This document shows, piece after piece, positions 9,073-41,325 of a DNA stretch of 64,000 nt (positions are counted from its first letter, which is position 1; every line of letters begins with the position of its first letter). Made by a program: the position numbers and the translations under genes. Source of the stretch: Sulfobacillus acidophilus DSM 10332 (lineage in GTDB: Bacteria > Bacillota > Sulfobacillia > Sulfobacillales > Sulfobacillaceae); the NCBI GenBank assembly GCA_000237975.1, contig CP003179.1, positions 3,378,270-3,442,269 on the forward strand. Reading direction: 5' to 3'. A model generated the notes under the pieces. It saw nothing but the letters and a program-made list of their open reading frames with translations, had not been told where the DNA came from and made no database searches.

Positions 9073-10302
9073 TCAAACGAGGGACGATTCCCGCACCGCC
9101 ACCTTATCCAAATACGCGTTTAAAAGTCGCTGAGTAACATCGGGGGGCATTTTCCCCCGAAAGCGAACGGTATATTCATCAAACAGGGTCTTCAACGTAT
9201 GGGATAACCCGCCGTAGTAGGCCTGATCCAGATCGCCGCCATATAGCACGTTCGATCGAATGAGCAGTGCCTTGGCTCCCATGTTCATGATGCAAAACAC
9301 TTCCGGATGATACGGCGCGATGACCCCGTGGTGGGTCACATCCCGCTTGAGCACGCTGGCCACCCGCATCGCTTGTAATACGGCCAGGTGTCCTAATTTA
9401 GGGACCGCCCGGGTGGCAATATCCCCTACCGCAAAAATATTGTCATAATCCAGATGGCGAAAATCTTCGTCGGTTGGAACAAAACCTGCTTCATCGGTCA
9501 ATCCGGCCTCTTTAACCACTTGCGGCCCCGAATAGGTCGGTACCAGCACCGTTAAGGCCGCCTCGTAGGAAGACCCGTCCGCAAACGACACGCGATCCGA
9601 CTCGATATGGCGAATGACTTTATTGGTCATCACTTCAATCTGATGGTCCCCGGCAATTTGGTTAAAGGCTTTATGGACGTTGTCTCCCACATCATCAAAA
9701 AATATCGAGCCGGGGGTATAGCAGACAATTTTTGCGTCATCGCGCTTGCCCTGTTTTCGCAACCAATGGTCTGCCAAAAACGCGACTTCACCGACCGGAC
9801 CTTCACAGGCCGCCTCTATCACCGGTACATCAGGTAGCCGGGTGCCGGTGGGGGTCGGCGCCGATCCCACAAAAATCGTCCCGCCTTCAAAATTTTGAAT
9901 CCGCTCATATAACCTTGGGGCTAACACTTCCGTGCAGACGGAGCTCCCATGTCGGGTAAATCCTGACACCTGGCCCCATTCTTTGGTCGCCCCTAACGCA
10001 ATCACCAGTACATCATAGAAAATTTGGGCCCCCTCGACCTCAATCATTCGGGCGTCCGGATCCATCCGAACAATCCGACTGTGGATAAAATCCGCCGACC
10101 GCCCCACCGTTTCGCGTAAGGAAAACGTGATGTGGCCAATTCCTTTTAGACCAAAGGCCACTTCCGGCAACGACGGTTTAACCAAAAACGTTTCCCGCTC
10201 ATCAATGACGGTTACCTTTACGTGAGCCCCATCGATCCACTCCCGCAGGTGATGATAGACGGTGATGCCACCAAACCCGGCTCCTAAAATCACGATGTGC
10301 AT
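9073..10302 (-). CDS. sqr: Sulfide:quinone oxidoreductase
   Basis: A 409-residue FAD enzyme. The N-terminal HIVILGAGFGG binds FAD and the C-terminal NIFAVGDIATR is the second FAD motif. Three cysteines, C123 (SSVCTEV), C166 (EAACEGPVGE) and C337 (EVFCIMNMG), fall at the positions of the redox and substrate cysteines of SQRs, so I prefer SQR to NDH-2. It oxidises sulfide to polysulfide/sulfur at the membrane face and reduces quinone. The ATG at 10302 follows GGAGGG; an ORF extension to 10338 lacks a site. Its neighbours TauE and FmdE-like fit a sulfur-compound cluster. Confidence 0.85.
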   Translation of the reverse strand: MHIVILGAGFGGITVYHHLREWIDGAHVKVTVIDERETFLVKPSLPEVAFGLKGIGHITFSLRETVGRSADFIHSRIVRMDPDARMIEVEGAQIFYDVLVIALGATKEWGQVSGFTRHGSSVCTEVLAPRLYERIQNFEGGTIFVGSAPTPTGTRLPDVPVIEAACEGPVGEVAFLADHWLRKQGKRDDAKIVCYTPGSIFFDDVGDNVHKAFNQIAGDHQIEVMTNKVIRHIESDRVSFADGSSYEAALTVLVPTYSGPQVVKEAGLTDEAGFVPTDEDFRHLDYDNIFAVGDIATRAVPKLGHLAVLQAMRVASVLKRDVTHHGVIAPYHPEVFCIMNMGAKALLIRSNVLYGGDLDQAYYGGLSHTLKTLFDEYTVRFRGKMPPDVTQRLLNAYLDKVAVRESSLV

Positions 10303-10390
10303 CGCATGCCCTCCGCCATGAATAGATAGGCTAGTCATGCCCTTAATGCCGGGTCATTACTCGGGGGGGATGCATGAACAGAGGGGATCG

Positions 10391-12083: not shown

Positions 12084-13454
12084 TCAAGGCTTTTTGGCCG
12101 TCCGGTCTGTGCGCGGCGAGGAATCCATCGCGCGACGCCTTTTAATCTTCCAGGGGGGCGGCAAAGAAACGGTCGGTGAGTTTTCCAGCGGCACCCCCGG
12201 CGTCACCGGTACCCAAGGAGATTTTTGCAACCGCACCAATTGACTGGGATAGACACTATGGTTGCCGATCATGATAAAAGCCGGAATGACCGCCAGTAAA
12301 AATTCCGGAGCCAAGAGACTCCCGAAGATTTCCATGCCCATAAGGATCGCCGCAATCGGGGCGTTCGCCCCCGCCCCCGTCACCGCCATCATGCCGACAG
12401 CCGCCGCGTCCGCGACGGGAAGACCCAATGGGTGGGCCAAAGTCGCACCGAGCGTGGCCCCAATAACAAACAAAGGGGTAATGATGCCGCCGCTCATCCC
12501 CAACCCCAGGGTAATCGCCACAAAAAGAATCTTCCACCACCACATCCAAGGACCTACCGAATGTCCCGCCAACGCTTGAATTAATAGCCCCAGAGATAGA
12601 CCGCCAGGGACGCGCCCAACCAGCGCGAACAACAAAAACAACAGGACTCCTGCCAAAAACGGCATCAGTGGCGGCCACCAACGCCGCTCGGCGGTTAGAT
12701 GACGGGATAACGTGTGAAACCCTTCCATTAAGAGGACCAACACATACGAAGCCAATCCGGCCGCGATTCCCAGTCCGATCATGCTTCCTACGACGGAAAA
12801 CGACCAAGGTAACGGTGCTTGCTGTTGCGGATAGTTCCAGGTTAGCCCCAAAAGATGTGCCACTTCATATGCAGCGGTCGCCGATGCCGCCGAGGGTAAC
12901 AGCATGTCGTACCACAAGTCTCCCAGCGCCAACACCTCGATCCCTAAAACCGCGCCGGCCACCGGTGTACCAAATACCGCCGCAAACCCCGCCCCAATTC
13001 CGCAAATCACGATGCGGCGCCGTCGATCCGGCGAAAACCGAAAGACATCCGCCAGAAACGATGCCACCGCCGCCCCGATTTGGGCCGACGGTCCTTCTTT
13101 TCCGGCCGACCCTCCGACCGCAATGGTCGTGATGGTTGCGAGAGCCTTAATCGGCGCCACTTTCCAATTAATTTGACCCGCTTTTTGATGGACCGCCCGG
13201 ATCACCGCTTCCGTCCCGTGTCCGGCTGCATCAGGAGCGCCATAATGAATTAAAAGGCCGGTGACCAAACCGCCCCCGGGCAAGGCCAACCCCAATGCCC
13301 ATAGAGGCCAATGGGCGGTTACGGATATCGACCAAAATAAAAGCTTCAAGAAGTAGGTCACGACTACGCCCACCAGCGCGCCTGTAAAGCCGCCCAAAAC
13401 GAGCCACAATAAGAGCTGGCGTCCCATGAATAACGGCTCCCAAATTTTTCGCAT
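12084..13454 (-). CDS. ClC-family chloride channel/antiporter
   Basis: A 456-residue, multi-helix ClC protein. Selectivity-filter motifs: GHGTEAVI in place of GSGIPE (near residue 72), GGSAGKEGP (near 107) and GGIITPLFVIG (near 345). The glutamate of GKEGP is the gating glutamate of the family. It moves chloride or a similar anion, possibly coupled to protons, which would matter for charge balance in acid. I do not see the GNNLI motif of fluoride-specific ClCs. The ATG at 13454 follows GAGGTGG; a first ATG five codons earlier precedes that site and is disfavoured. Confidence 0.88.
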   Translation of the reverse strand: MRKIWEPLFMGRQLLLWLVLGGFTGALVGVVVTYFLKLLFWSISVTAHWPLWALGLALPGGGLVTGLLIHYGAPDAAGHGTEAVIRAVHQKAGQINWKVAPIKALATITTIAVGGSAGKEGPSAQIGAAVASFLADVFRFSPDRRRRIVICGIGAGFAAVFGTPVAGAVLGIEVLALGDLWYDMLLPSAASATAAYEVAHLLGLTWNYPQQQAPLPWSFSVVGSMIGLGIAAGLASYVLVLLMEGFHTLSRHLTAERRWWPPLMPFLAGVLLFLLFALVGRVPGGLSLGLLIQALAGHSVGPWMWWWKILFVAITLGLGMSGGIITPLFVIGATLGATLAHPLGLPVADAAAVGMMAVTGAGANAPIAAILMGMEIFGSLLAPEFLLAVIPAFIMIGNHSVYPSQLVRLQKSPWVPVTPGVPLENSPTVSLPPPWKIKRRRAMDSSPRTDRTAKKP

Positions 13455-13741
13455 AGGATGCCACCTCATTTCGTGTCACGTTTACGTCCTCCAAAGTCAT
13501 TCTATCGCAATACATTCTGATGCGTCGGCAAGCCCCCCTTGGCCATCTCTTGTCACGTGGCCATATGATGCGTCACCGTTACATAAGGTTGTCCCCTTGA
13601 AGTCGACCCGGTACCTCCACAATGTTTTTAAATTCAGTGACGAGATACTCCTTTGGACGGGAAATCGGCCCGATGGATTGAACCCGACAAGCCCCGTGTG
13701 GTAAGGTAAATGTGCCAATTTCACGAAAAGTCGGTGGTTTT

Positions 13742-13978
13742 ATGATCGATCTGGATTTACGCGGACAGTGCTGAGGGGCCCCTATCGTCAGCGTGTCTGG
13801 CGTGATGAAACACTTAAATGCGGGCGACACGGTGCGTATTTGGACCAACAAATGGTCCGTAGTACGTGACATGGAGGCTTTTGCCCATTCGACCGGCCAT
13901 CATTATCTTCATTGGGAAGAACATCCGGAAGACGCCGATACCTGGTGGGTGATATTGGAAAAGGGAGAAAAACCTTAG
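13742..13978 (+). CDS. TusA-family sulfur carrier with in-frame TGA at the catalytic cysteine (candidate selenoprotein)
   Basis: From ATG 13742 the frame reads MIDLDLRGQC, then TGA (13772-13774), then GAPIVSVSGVMKHLNAGDTV and on to a TAG-ended 78-residue product, the full TusA length. TusA proteins carry LDxRGxxCPxP with one sulfur-carrying cysteine, and the TGA falls exactly on it. The rest is well kept (GDTVRIWTN, DMEAFAHSTGHHYL), with no other disruption. Either selenocysteine is inserted or one nonsense mutation has occurred. Restart at GTG 13793 would lose the active site. A weak GGTGG site precedes the ATG. A normal TusA is encoded at 41074. Confidence 0.6.
13785..13808 (+). promoter_or_regulatory. 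SECIS-like hairpin just after the in-frame TGA
   Basis: Starting 11 bases after the TGA, TCGTCA-(G bulge)-CG pairs with CGTGATGA to give eight base pairs, one G-U, with a single bulged G and a 7-base TGTCTGG loop at +20 to +26. Bacterial SECIS elements lie in this range downstream of UGA, with a small apical loop containing G/U and a bulge. The match is by geometry only. The coding sequence itself could produce such a stem by chance. Confidence 0.35.
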
Positions 13979-14155: not shown

Positions 14156-14863
14156 ATGAAAGCCCATAAATTCTGGGGTCCCCTGATCGGTTTAGAAGCG
14201 TTGGCGGGCATCGTGGGATTCACCGCCTACCGGTGGATTCGGCTGCATCCGGCCTTGCACGCGGTCTGGCCCTGGGTGTTAGCCCGCGCGGCCGGACTCG
14301 GCGCCTACGGCCTGTTAACCGTCGTGGTACTCATGGGCATCGGCATGAGCCATCCGCGATGGAAACGGGTTCTTGCGCGCCCCCTCTACAGCTGGCACCG
14401 GAGTCTGGCGCTCGGTGTGTTCGCCCTCATCGCCATTCACGGGACGGCTCTGGCCCTCGATCCCTATGCCAAAGTCTCTTGGCTTGGTCTGATTATCCCG
14501 GGACTCGCCCATTACCGCCCGCTCGCAGTCGGCTTCGGGGTCTTATCGGCCGAAGGACTATTATTGATTGCCGTCACCGCGCATGGGGCCCAAAATTGGG
14601 GGCGACTCAAATGGATGACAATTCATCGGGCGGCCCTCGTCACCTGGGGGTTGGCGCTGTTCCATAGCCTCTGGAGCGGCACCGACACGCGATCCCTGGC
14701 GGTCTTTTATGAGGTCGGCACGGTCCTCGTTGGACTGGCGATGCTATTACGCTATGGAACGGAACGGGCGGCCCGGTTATCGCCCGTCCGCGCCGTCAAT
14801 CCGCCCCCCGGATTACCATCTTGGAATCGAGAAAAGAGGGATCTCCGTGAACACGTGGATTAA
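14156..14863 (+). CDS. Ferric-reductase-like transmembrane cytochrome b (FRD/MsrQ-type)
   Basis: A 235-residue protein with six predicted helices. Two histidine pairs, H81/H95 (WHRSLALGVFALIAIH) and H157/H170 (IHRAALVTWGLALFH), have the 13-14 residue spacing that holds two stacked b hemes in the ferric reductase/NOX/MsrQ fold. It would carry electrons across the membrane. There is no fused FAD/NADPH domain, so it needs partners. The ATG follows AAGGAG. The next gene starts before this one stops, and the operon continues to ApbE, suggesting electron delivery to flavinylated extracytoplasmic proteins (inference). Confidence 0.82.
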   Translation: MKAHKFWGPLIGLEALAGIVGFTAYRWIRLHPALHAVWPWVLARAAGLGAYGLLTVVVLMGIGMSHPRWKRVLARPLYSWHRSLALGVFALIAIHGTALALDPYAKVSWLGLIIPGLAHYRPLAVGFGVLSAEGLLLIAVTAHGAQNWGRLKWMTIHRAALVTWGLALFHSLWSGTDTRSLAVFYEVGTVLVGLAMLLRYGTERAARLSPVRAVNPPPGLPSWNREKRDLREHVD

Positions 14864-15770: not shown

Positions 15771-16718
15771 ATGATTACACGGCATTGGCGTGCCATGGCC
15801 TCCCCCATTGAATGGCTCATCGACAGCCCGACCGAAACGGATTGGATCGATCCCCTCGCCGATCACCTCCAACATCTCTTTGACACCGTCGAACGACACC
15901 TGTCCCGATTCCGGGAGGATAGCGAGGCGGTTCAACTCAACCGACGGCTCGGCGACTGGGTCAAGGTCTCTCCGATCCTCTATGAAGCGTTGCGGCTCAG
16001 TCACCGGGCTTGGCGCATCACCCAGGGCCTGTTTGATCCGCGGATTATTACCGATCTGGAACGACTGGGCTATCATGGGGCGGCCATTCCCGGCTCCTTA
16101 ACGCAGTCCGCCGACGATTGGTTGACCCGGTGCCCCCGCACGGCTACCATTCGCCTCCGGGCTCCGGTGGATTTTGGCGGGATCGGGAAGAGCTTGGCCG
16201 TTTACTGGGCCGCCCTCCGCATTCGTCGGCATAAGCGGTTTCAGCAACAGACCCGGCCTCCCATGTTGCTGAATGCGGGCGGTGACTTACAGATCATGGG
16301 CCCGGCCATACCGGCGGGGGGCTGGCAAATCGGCATTGAGCACCCCGTCACCCCCGACCACTTAGCCGCAGTGCTCAATATGTCCGTTCCGCTGGCCGTG
16401 TGCACGTCCTCCATTCGCCGTCATCAGTGGATGCACGACGGCCGCCCAGTCCATCATTTGATTCACCCCTTCACCCATCAGCCGGGGGGCTCAGGCCTTC
16501 TCAGCGTGACCGTGGCCCATAGGGCTCCCACGTGGGCCGAAATTTGGAGCAAAGCCTTGTTTTTACACGGGCGTCAAGGCATCGCCGCGGCTGCCGCTCG
16601 TCACCGCCTCGTTGCGTGGTGGTTTTCTGCCGACGGCCGCTGGGGGGCGACCCCAGAAGCTTTCTCGTACATTCGATGGGTCCACCCCGACTTTTCCCTA
16701 CCCCGCACAACACGATAG
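15771..16718 (+). CDS. apbE: ApbE-type FAD:protein FMN transferase
   Basis: A 315-residue protein. ApbE features: an N-terminal ASPIEWLI strand, VDFGGIGKSLAVYWA (near 130), LLNAGGDLQIMG (near 167) and the catalytic region CTSSIRRHQWMHDGRPVHHLIHP (near 210-235). ApbE transfers FMN from FAD to a serine or threonine in S/TGAT/S motifs. The family is usually exported or lipid-anchored, but no signal peptide or lipobox is visible here, which is odd if the targets are outside the membrane. It ends the cytochrome-stalk-stalk-ApbE operon and overlaps the convergent merA stop by 21 bases. Confidence 0.85.
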   Translation: MITRHWRAMASPIEWLIDSPTETDWIDPLADHLQHLFDTVERHLSRFREDSEAVQLNRRLGDWVKVSPILYEALRLSHRAWRITQGLFDPRIITDLERLGYHGAAIPGSLTQSADDWLTRCPRTATIRLRAPVDFGGIGKSLAVYWAALRIRRHKRFQQQTRPPMLLNAGGDLQIMGPAIPAGGWQIGIEHPVTPDHLAAVLNMSVPLAVCTSSIRRHQWMHDGRPVHHLIHPFTHQPGGSGLLSVTVAHRAPTWAEIWSKALFLHGRQGIAAAAARHRLVAWWFSADGRWGATPEAFSYIRWVHPDFSLPRTTR

Positions 16719-18356
16719 TTTCGAGACATCTTTATCAAACGTGAGGGCGGTCAGTTTCAGTCCTTCCGCCATGGTCAAGTAGGGCGCTAAGGTATCCGTC
16801 AGGTCCGCAATCGTTAACCCGAATTTCACGGCCAACGTTGCGGCATAAATCACGTCGCCGGCATTTTCCGCGACCGCCTGAACTCCCAGAATTCGGCCGG
16901 ACTCCGCCTCGGCCACCATTTTGAATAGGCCTCGAGTCTCATGATTCGCTAATGCCCGAGGGACCGCGTCCAACGGCAACACCGCCGTTTTCACGGAAAG
17001 ACCGGCTCTCTTCGCCTGCTCTTCGGTCATGCCGACCGTCGCTAAAGACGGTTGGGTAAATGTCACCGCGGGAACCACATCCAACCGGACGGTTGCCGGG
17101 GATGGCCGTAATCCCAAAGCGTTTTGCGCCGCGAGTTTGCCCTGGTACGCCGCCACATAAACAAATTGCGGACCCAAAGTGACGTCCCCGGCGGCGTAAA
17201 TCCGGGAATTGGCGGTCATTAAGGTGCCATCGACCATCGGTTGCCCCAAAGCCCCCTGTTCAACGCCCGCTACCGGCAAATCTAACGCGTCCGTATTCGG
17301 GACGCGACCGGCCGCAAGTAATAATTGATCCCCGATAATCCGCTCACTGACGCCGTTTCGGGTCACATAAACGATTTTTTGCGAGCCCTTTTGTTCCACG
17401 CGTTCATAGGTCACGCCGGTCATGACCCGAATCCCCTCATTTTCAAGCACTTCTTGCATCACGTGGCGGATTTCCGCGTCATAACCGGGCAAGAGGGTTT
17501 GGCCGCGCTGAATGAACGTGACATGGCTTCCCCAACGACGAAACATCTGACCCAGCTCTAACGCAATATAGCCACTCCCAATCACGATAAGGTGTTCGGG
17601 AATCGTTGTCAGGTCCAGTGCCGTGGTACTGGTCAAATAATTGACCGTATCGATGCCGGGAATATCGGGAATCCGCGGGCGCGCTCCGGTGGCAATGAGA
17701 TAGTGCCCGCCGTGAATCACGCGATCGCCGACCCGAAGATGCGCGGAATCCACAAACCGAGCCTCCCCCTGGAGGAACTCGATATCATATTCCCCCAACA
17801 AATCCGCATATTTGGTCTGACGCATGGTGGCCACCAACCGGTCTTTATCCGCCACCACTTCGCCCAGATCAGGTGTAGAGGCCGTGGTCCGCAACCCCGC
17901 AAATGGATGATGAAGAGCCATATGATGGATTTCGCTAGCCTTTAAGAGGGTCTTCGAGGGGACACAGCCGACGTTCACGCAAGTACCGCCCAGGGTTCCT
18001 CGCTCGATCATCAAAACCTTCGCTCCCGCGCCCCGCACTTCAATGGCCGCCGCGAACGCCGCACTCCCCGAACCTATCACCACCAGATCGTAGTCCGCTG
18101 AACCGAACGACACGCGTTCGGGGGACATTTCGTCGGTCATGCGTACCCCTTGCGGTGTATATCCGGCGTCTACAATCAATTGCTGAGCCTTCTCGATCGA
18201 AAAATCCGGCGGGGCCTGAAATTCCGCTTGTCCGCGGCGAAAACTGACCCGAATGTCCGACGCTCCCGCGTTTTCGAGCGCGCGACCGACATGATGCTCG
18301 CAGGACGTACAGGTCATCCCCTGAATATCCATGATATAGTGAACGCTTTTCTCCAT
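16698..18356 (-). CDS. merA: Mercuric reductase with N-terminal heavy-metal-binding domain
   Basis: A 552-residue flavoprotein. The N-terminal HMA domain has GMTCTSCEHH (residues 13-22). The disulfide reductase core has an FAD-binding GSGSAAFAAA motif, the redox pair GGTCVNVGCVPSK and NSRIYAAGDVTLGPQ. The C-terminal pair in LSCCAG delivers Hg(II) in MerA. It reduces Hg(II) to Hg(0) with NADPH in the cytoplasm. The ATG at 18356 follows GGAAGGA; the frame opens earlier without a site. No merT/merP transporter is nearby. The divergent ArsR-family gene is the likely regulator. Confidence 0.95.
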   Translation of the reverse strand: MEKSVHYIMDIQGMTCTSCEHHVGRALENAGASDIRVSFRRGQAEFQAPPDFSIEKAQQLIVDAGYTPQGVRMTDEMSPERVSFGSADYDLVVIGSGSAAFAAAIEVRGAGAKVLMIERGTLGGTCVNVGCVPSKTLLKASEIHHMALHHPFAGLRTTASTPDLGEVVADKDRLVATMRQTKYADLLGEYDIEFLQGEARFVDSAHLRVGDRVIHGGHYLIATGARPRIPDIPGIDTVNYLTSTTALDLTTIPEHLIVIGSGYIALELGQMFRRWGSHVTFIQRGQTLLPGYDAEIRHVMQEVLENEGIRVMTGVTYERVEQKGSQKIVYVTRNGVSERIIGDQLLLAAGRVPNTDALDLPVAGVEQGALGQPMVDGTLMTANSRIYAAGDVTLGPQFVYVAAYQGKLAAQNALGLRPSPATVRLDVVPAVTFTQPSLATVGMTEEQAKRAGLSVKTAVLPLDAVPRALANHETRGLFKMVAEAESGRILGVQAVAENAGDVIYAATLAVKFGLTIADLTDTLAPYLTMAEGLKLTALTFDKDVSKLSCCAG

Positions 18357-18429
18357 GACGCATCCTTCCCTTCCCAGGCAACGCGACGATTTCGTTCTCT
18401 TGACTGCCATCGTAACCCATTACATCACA

Positions 18430-18450: not shown

Positions 18451-18545
18451 ACAGTGACTGGTTGCCCCACAACGCTTTTGTTATGATGAAAGATACTAGA
18501 AGCGGTTATTCGACCCAAATCACCGGGATTACGAAGGAGAAGCCC

Positions 18546-18911
18546 ATGTTTGTCAAGACAGACCAACCGGACGAGTTATTTGCGGCCTTTTGGCAAGCGC
18601 TCAGCCATCCCATTCGTCTCCGCGTACTGGAGCAATTGCGGCACGAAGGGTCCATGAACGTGGGAGAATTGGTCACGCGATTGGGTATTGGTCAAGGGCA
18701 TTTATCCAACCATTTAGCCTGTCTGAAAAATTGCGGACTCGTGGTGGCCGAGTCCCGCGGTCGCTACGTCTATTACCGGATTGCCGACGAACGCGTCTTG
18801 TCCCTATTGGATATGGGCCGAGCGATCCTCCAAGACCATCTCACCGGAGTCGCCGCCTGTAGTGTGGTCAATTCACCCCGAACGTCCCCTAACCCGTTCC
18901 AGATTGGTTAG
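18546..18911 (+). CDS. ArsR/SmtB-family metalloregulator
   Basis: A 121-residue winged-helix protein: FWQALSHPIRLRVLEQLRHE (first helices), a recognition segment GIGQGHLSNHLACLKNCGLV, and a wing ESRGRYVYYRIAD. The two cysteines of CLKNC and one in AACSVV could bind a soft metal. Divergent to merA, it probably represses it until Hg(II) binds (inference); most merA genes use MerR instead. The ATG at 18546 follows AAGGAGA. Confidence 0.88.
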   Translation: MFVKTDQPDELFAAFWQALSHPIRLRVLEQLRHEGSMNVGELVTRLGIGQGHLSNHLACLKNCGLVVAESRGRYVYYRIADERVLSLLDMGRAILQDHLTGVAACSVVNSPRTSPNPFQIG

Positions 18912-39500: not shown

Positions 39501-39560
39501 GCCACACCCTCTTTTCGTTGCTTATGGCTTGCTAATCAACGTCGAAGTCTATACAATCAT

Positions 39561-39596
39561 ACCGAATTTAACAGCAGCCGACCGAATCTAACAGCA
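39561..39596. repeat. Two 16-base direct repeats upstream of the response regulator
   Basis: ACCGAATTTAACAGCA (39561-39576) and ACCGAATCTAACAGCA (39581-39596) differ at one base and start 20 bases apart, about two helical turns. They lie about 50 bases upstream of the response regulator start and 60 bases from the divergent membrane protein start. Such tandem sites often bind a regulator dimer. Which protein binds is unknown. Confidence 0.5.
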
Positions 39597-39644
39597 AATT
39601 TCCTCGATGACGTGACCCAGTCCAAGTAAAGGAGACTGGCTTTC

Positions 39645-40034
39645 ATGAAGCAAGTGCTAGTTATCGATGACGAACCCAGCATTCGCCAGGTGGTGCGGCT
39701 AGCGCTTGAACCGTTGGGCTTATCCGTGACCGAGGCCGCTTCGGCACAAGCCGCCCTTCTGGTTCTCCGCGATGTGGTCCCCGACGTGGTGTTGCTGGAC
39801 TATCGGCTGCCTGACATGACCGGCATTGAGTTGGCCCACTTGCTGTATCCTCAGTTTCCCCAGTTACCGGTCATTTTGCTCAGCGCCTCGTGGGATTGGG
39901 AGCCGACCCCGTTACCCACCGGCATTATTCGGTTCATGACCAAGCCTTTTCGCCTTCGGGAACTGCAAGCCGCGGTCACCGAGCAGCTGGCCCGCGACGT
40001 CACCTTCCCCCTCCACAATAGCGGGACGCTGTGA
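39645..40034 (+). CDS. Stand-alone response regulator receiver protein
   Basis: A 129-residue CheY-like protein. D9-D10 (VIDDEPS), phosphoacceptor D53 in VVLLDYRLPDM, S80-A81-S82 and the lysine in FMTKPFRLREL are all present, so it should be phosphorylatable. There is no output domain. No histidine kinase is in the window; the chemoreceptor at 2220 is far away. The ATG follows AAAGGAG. Confidence 0.9.
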   Translation: MKQVLVIDDEPSIRQVVRLALEPLGLSVTEAASAQAALLVLRDVVPDVVLLDYRLPDMTGIELAHLLYPQFPQLPVILLSASWDWEPTPLPTGIIRFMTKPFRLRELQAAVTEQLARDVTFPLHNSGTL

Positions 40035-41077: not shown

Positions 41078-41325
41078 TGGGTCCGGCGGATCCAAAATTG
41101 ATAGGGCGGGGCCTCGCCCGCTTGTCTCACCAGTTCGTGACCGGTGGACCGGCACCAGGCACGAAAATCTTCCAGGGAACCGGGATCCGTCGTCCAAATT
41201 TCGACGATCTCCCCGACCTCGATTTGACTGACTCCCCGTTTGGCCCGGATAATCGGTAACGGACAGGCTAACCCTTTGGCATCGATACTTAATTGCACCG
41301 CGAGCGGAGCACCCTGATCAGCCAT
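41074..41325 (-). CDS. tusA: TusA-family sulfurtransferase (canonical)
   Basis: An 83-residue protein with the full TusA motif IDAKGLACPLPIIRAKRG, the cysteine of CPLP carrying persulfide sulfur, and EVGEIVEIWTTDPGSLED and WCRSTGHELV. It relays sulfur in thiolation or sulfur oxidation pathways. The ATG at 41325 follows GGGAGGA; an upstream extension is unlikely. It overlaps the convergent nitrilase gene by four bases. It provides the reference for judging the TGA-containing paralogue at 13742. Confidence 0.93.
   Translation of the reverse strand: MADQGAPLAVQLSIDAKGLACPLPIIRAKRGVSQIEVGEIVEIWTTDPGSLEDFRAWCRSTGHELVRQAGEAPPYQFWIRRTH

Follow-up and report, generated by a model that had tools for sequence, protein, structure and literature searches.

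TusA of E. coli (YhhP, SirA family, PF01206) accepts persulfide sulfur from IscS on Cys19, and a role has been described for Arg50 and Asp51, which lie near this acceptor (PMC2854127). YedF is a SirA-like protein that the passages concerned with it in PMC2432076 and PMC5322559 link to selenium metabolism and do not describe as a selenoprotein; it is described as having a DsrE domain besides its CPxP motif, and its gene often adjoins selD. TsuB/YeeD is a TusA-like protein that partners the thiosulfate transporter TsuA. A 2026 inventory lists 119 prokaryotic selenoprotein families, among them DsrE-like, rhodanese, YeeE/YedE and OsmC-like proteins (PMC13188914). The selenocysteine (Sec)-containing rhodaneses, DsrE-like and YeeE/YedE proteins are related to sulfur metabolism and carry Sec at a reactive position, but their folds are unrelated to TusA. 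TusA, SirA and PF01206 are absent from those 119 families, and a TusA selenoprotein is not named in a 2022 review or a 2025 prediction paper. Searching the full-text open-access literature for TusA together with selenium returned no report of such a selenoprotein, and one may exist elsewhere.

We analysed a window of 64,000 nucleotides from Sulfobacillus acidophilus DSM 10332, in which a short gene, here called Sec-tusA, very probably encodes a TusA (SirA/UPF0033) selenoprotein whose acceptor Cys is replaced by Sec, the UGA being decoded through SelB and a hairpin. With high confidence, we take this predicted Sec variant of TusA to be a new, apparently uncatalogued selenoprotein family. The selenoproteome would thereby gain a sulfur-carrier family with Sec at the sulfur-carrying atom itself. 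As a small and soluble protein whose biochemistry is well understood, TusA would make the question of selenium for sulfur testable with a clean Sec/Cys pair.

The gene and its predicted product

The earlier note on this DNA had read the frame from ATG 13742 as a complete TusA with one TGA, placed that TGA at the catalytic Cys, and proposed a candidate selenoprotein. The features of the gene, in window coordinates, are:

13742-13978, plus strand: tusA-type gene, start ATG at 13742, stop TAG at 13976-13978, 78 amino acids with the TGA read as Sec
13769-13771, plus strand: Cys10 codon TGC, first member of the vicinal Cys-Sec pair, aligned with Arg18 of E. coli TusA
13772-13774, plus strand: TGA in frame, predicted to encode Sec11, conserved at this codon in 14 of 14 distinct sequences
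13786-13802, plus strand: predicted SECIS apical hairpin, stem 13786-13791/13797-13802, loop CGUGU at 13792-13796
13865-13870, plus strand: Arg42-Asp43 (CGTGAC), counterpart of Arg50-Asp51 of E. coli TusA in the gapless alignment to 3lvj

Read through, the gene yields MIDLDLRGQC-U-GAPIVSVSGVMKHLNAGDTVRIWTNKWSVVRDMEAFAHSTGHHYLHWEEHPEDADTWWVILEKGEKP. This protein scored 45.7 bits against Pfam PF01206 (TusA; cut-off 28.6) over residues 3-72 of 78; apart from its one TGA the frame is complete. The family profile aligned without gaps to the E. coli TusA structures 3lvj and 1dcj and placed the TGA-encoded residue on Cys19, just where the earlier note had put it. The predicted structure of Sec-TusA had a mean pLDDT of 95.5, and its top matches in the PDB were SirA-like and TusA proteins (TM 0.77-0.84; 0.82 against E. 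coli TusA, 3lvj). In this model strand 1 spans residues 2-5 and the active-site loop residues 6-12, with Sec11 immediately ahead of helix 1.

The window protein and TusA share their fold, their length, the place of the reactive residue and the RD motif, and the Asp of that motif (Asp43) was invariant in the alignment of 14 sequences. They differ in the acceptor, which is Cys in E. coli TusA and a predicted Sec preceded by Cys here. Instead of the CPxP motif of TusA, the alignment reads CUxxP, the first Pro being replaced by Gly, Arg, Leu or Ala, and Asp45 of E. coli TusA corresponds to Lys37. Against NF001423, the NCBIfam equivalog model for TusA, the protein scored 23.7 bits (cut-off 78). Judged by its sequence and modelled structure, the product is a TusA-fold protein, and the fold does not imply orthology to the TusA of tRNA thiolation. 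YedF shares the N-terminal SirA/TusA domain and the tie to selenium metabolism, whereas the window protein is a single domain of 78 residues that lacks DsrE, is not encoded beside selD and carries the predicted Sec itself; its score against TIGR03527 (YedF) was 15.5 bits (cut-off 110). TsuB/YeeD was matched by Foldseek at TM 0.79-0.84 but is a Cys protein. The window protein had no match to NF041048 (TsuB/YeeD), two relatives reached only 12.8-16.4 bits, and no YeeE-type gene was recognised beside Sec-tusA in the window. The same window holds a TusA-type paralogue without an in-frame stop (41125-41292, minus strand).

If translation simply terminated at the UGA, then the downstream part would have to be translated from an internal start such as the ATG of Met22, or the arrangement would be a regulatory device. 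The window sequence does contain this in-frame downstream ATG. However, the TusA fold requires strand 1 and the active-site loop, the residues before the TGA (LDLRGxC) rank among the most conserved, and the alignment has no conserved downstream start. We regard such an origin as extremely improbable.

Conservation of the TGA among relatives

We searched 42 genomes of the order with a profile search tolerant of stops, then 154 genomes of the class with the alignment obtained from those, and later 398 genomes of the phylum. The best match contained exactly one internal TGA in 7 genomes of the order. In the class search, each of the top 15 genomes, drawn from five families, had a match with one internal TGA (that of L083 extended additionally into its own terminal TAA), and the next-best match was a Cys-type TusA at 48 bits. 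Reading at the DNA level placed the TGA at the identical codon throughout the 14 distinct sequences from these 15 genomes. The preceding codon was TGC or TGT in 13 of them and GGG (Gly) in L091. Six of the records, identified by name, are different MAGs, separate from the closed genome. Cys-type homologues have Cys at the TGA position. Among the inspected matches of the phylum search, no further TGA at this codon was recognised, and the high-scoring ones outside the class were Cys-type or ended at ordinary stops; a related-locus search with a 7-row alignment returned no loci beyond those already found.

In a tree with 56 Cys-type matches, the Sec form was a single clade with 100/99 support (one of the 56, the second motif of L037, is probably spurious). 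The codons after the TGA had dN/dS of 0.06-0.32, which indicates purifying selection, and many members have AGGAGG, a strong Shine-Dalgarno sequence, ahead of the start codon.

These data bear on the simplest account of the locus, which the earlier note had kept beside its own, namely a single nonsense mutation. Its proposed check, the codon ending at base 13774 in relatives, gave TGA rather than TGC or TGT across the subfamily. A private nonsense mutation is excluded, because the TGA is shared, its carriers form one clade and dN/dS remains low after it. More broadly, the locus could be an ordinary TusA gene hit by a nonsense mutation or a sequencing error, its downstream part a decaying pseudogene. 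Loss does occur in the group: G029 holds what is left of a Sec-TusA-like gene, decayed and broken by several stops (L031, G029:C63:99819-99908), and from it we conclude that the gene was lost in some lineages. Nevertheless, an identical TGA in independently assembled genomes (14 distinct sequences), dN/dS well below 1 downstream of it in a single ancient clade, and the strong ribosome-binding sequences ahead of the ATG in many relatives leave this account a negligible probability. We note a further TusA-like relative of the Sec clade, L029 (G036:C38, about 39547-39690), whose active site has neither Cys nor Sec (MDVHAFAEMTSIPLVQVADAV).

The usual genetic code ends Sec-tusA after ten residues, and gene callers are therefore likely to overlook it; the stop-tolerant profile search recovers it in at least 14 species.

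Selenium machinery of the genome

The window belongs to a closed genome of 3.56 Mb. In it we found tRNA-Sec (selC) with a UCA anticodon (73 bits), selB (339 bits), selA (551 bits) and selD (357 bits; L175, G000:C1:1401608-1402540), the last with one in-frame TGA of its own. An fdhA gene (L173, G000:C1:981985-983856) has an in-frame TGA followed by a canonical GGUCU SECIS loop; Sec-type formate dehydrogenases were reported in every Sulfobacillus genome of one study (PMC4378227). All four sel genes that the earlier note had wished to see were thus present in one genome, and this organism is therefore equipped for selenoprotein synthesis by the standard route. With Sec-tusA, selD and one fdhA, it seems to have no fewer than three selenoprotein genes. 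Along with the retention of the TGA among relatives, this machinery lends support to the proposal of a candidate selenoprotein.

Among carriers of the gene, selA was found in 9 of the 9 with at least 90% completeness, and selB exceeded its cut-off in 11 of 14 tested. In G088 selB lies in fragments on separate contigs of a fragmented MAG; in G024 (96% complete) and G040, both fragmented MAGs, it did not exceed the cut-off. All three still have an fdhA carrying TGA. In two other genomes, the fdhA genes with TGA (L163 in G083, L150 in G082) are followed by a hairpin whose loop is GCGCUG instead of GGUCU, which may represent another kind of SECIS within the class.

An alternative decoding, in which the UGA is read through as Cys or another amino acid, for instance by an unusual tRNA, deserves mention since the genome also encodes a tRNA-Sec-shaped tRNA with a GCA anticodon and U before its CCA end (L002:1501-1591, G000:C1:1007566-1007656, minus strand; 56 bits as tRNA-Sec). 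It looks like a selC* tRNA-Cys, a type reviewed in PMC7609411, and related genomes contain other tRNA-Sec hits, at about 50-60 bits, that may be of the same kind. Its GCA anticodon, however, reads UGY and not UGA, the genome has the standard UCA tRNA-Sec with SelA, SelB and SelD, and a SECIS-like hairpin follows the UGA, a device that fdhA and selD use in the same genome. We therefore consider decoding as Cys or another residue very unlikely. Since the stop and the hairpin are kept in at least 14 species and the full selenium machinery is present in the genome, the UGA almost certainly stands for Sec.

The downstream hairpin and the proposed sulfur relay

A hairpin starting 11 bases after the TGA had been described as a bulged 8-bp stem with a 7-base loop. 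Both the hairpin and its start (13786) were recovered, but that shape is one among near-equivalent folds. The conserved element is a short loop on a stem of 6 bp in the window sequence; within its own subclade, most relatives have a stem of 7 bp. The hairpin is common to the eight sequences of this subclade and spans bases 12 to 28 downstream of the TGA. There RNAalifold detected it unprompted with 98% of cells paired, compensatory changes occurred at 2 of 7 pairs (one of them in the window sequence itself, from A-U to G-C), and sliding the partner strand abolished it. The GU of the loop is invariant in the subclade, with a spacing of 17 nt.

The published bSECIS model (PMC13188914) has the loop pattern N1-G[G/U]-N-N2, with G among the first two bases of the loop, a loop of 3-9 nt, a stem of 4-16 bp, a spacing of 16-37 nt and an MFE of at most -7.5. 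With 6 bp, the loop CGUGU (G second), 17 nt and -8.7 to -10.6 kcal/mol in its best local folds, the window hairpin lies within all of these ranges. The N1-N2 pair varies most (C-G, U-A, A-U) and is an unpaired C/U in the window sequence. The comparison with a bacterial SECIS model that the earlier note had suggested thus gave a fit, and it holds in one subclade, that of the window. In the second subclade (L081, L082, L085, L086, L091, L093) the hairpin lies about 4 nt further downstream, several members have no G among the first two bases of the loop, and the consensus is noisier; some bSECIS elements are known to fall outside the model (PMC13188914). The RNAalifold consensus of this second subclade had a poor covariation term, and we therefore claim covariation for the first subclade only. 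Sub-threshold Rfam hits near Sec-tusA were dismissed as chance.

Because the stem overlaps conserved codons, we compared the hairpin with synonymously recoded sequences drawn by local codon usage, in a 27-base stretch on the hairpin that was placed after the folds were known. The z score was -2.34 for the window sequence and averaged -2.03 over 14 sequences, and 0 of 1000 simulations were as low as observed, for the 14 sequences and likewise for a reduced set of 10. A longer 36-base stretch weakened the signal (mean z about -1.4). In the control set of 56 Cys-type TusA genes, which superseded an initial set of 4, the mean z was -0.71, and the mean MFE was -3.8 compared with -9.4 in the Sec form (Mann-Whitney p 1.4e-6). 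Part of the hairpin's conservation is protein constraint, as it lies in conserved codons.

In the mechanism we propose, the UGA at 13772 would be decoded by SelB-delivered Sec-tRNA (UCA), guided by the hairpin inside the coding sequence. The TusA fold would be kept, and the Sec ahead of helix 1 would adjoin a conserved Cys, giving a vicinal Cys-Sec in place of Cys-Pro. We infer that Sec is the sulfur-accepting nucleophile: its selenolate would take sulfane sulfur, or undergo oxidation, and the neighbouring Cys could resolve it via a selenenylsulfide. The Cys-Sec pair suggests a selenenylsulfide as resting state or resolving step. Sulfur-metabolising acidophiles and related organisms would then possess a selenium-based form of the TusA sulfur relay. 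That sulfur has been carried as a selenenyl persulfide (or selenium itself carried), with the vicinal Cys resolving, since an early ancestor of one class is a tentative and rather doubtful proposal. We know of no TusA for which a selenium-atom sulfur relay with a vicinal Cys has been described.

Compared across the group, the neighbours of Sec-tusA differ by genus and have nothing in common except between close relatives. Since no neighbouring gene is shared, the surroundings favour none of three roles, namely sulfur relay, selenium relay or thiol-redox protein. Within the window Sec-tusA stands by itself, flanked by a CLC-type channel gene (12084-13469, minus strand) and a gene for a membrane protein that belongs to no known family (14156-14863). 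Further away, beside a TauE-type exporter gene, lies an open frame without TGA for a pyridine nucleotide-disulfide oxidoreductase (9073-10338, minus strand), whose top-scoring NCBIfam model is that for type III sulfide:quinone reductase, selenoprotein subtype, at 134.5 bits far under the cut-off of 525. A mercuric reductase gene, merA (16698-18410, minus strand; TIGR02053, 577.9 bits), whose product has an N-terminal extension with a CxxC motif, is accompanied by a probable ArsR-like regulator (ORF 18462-18911) and lies 3 kb from Sec-tusA.
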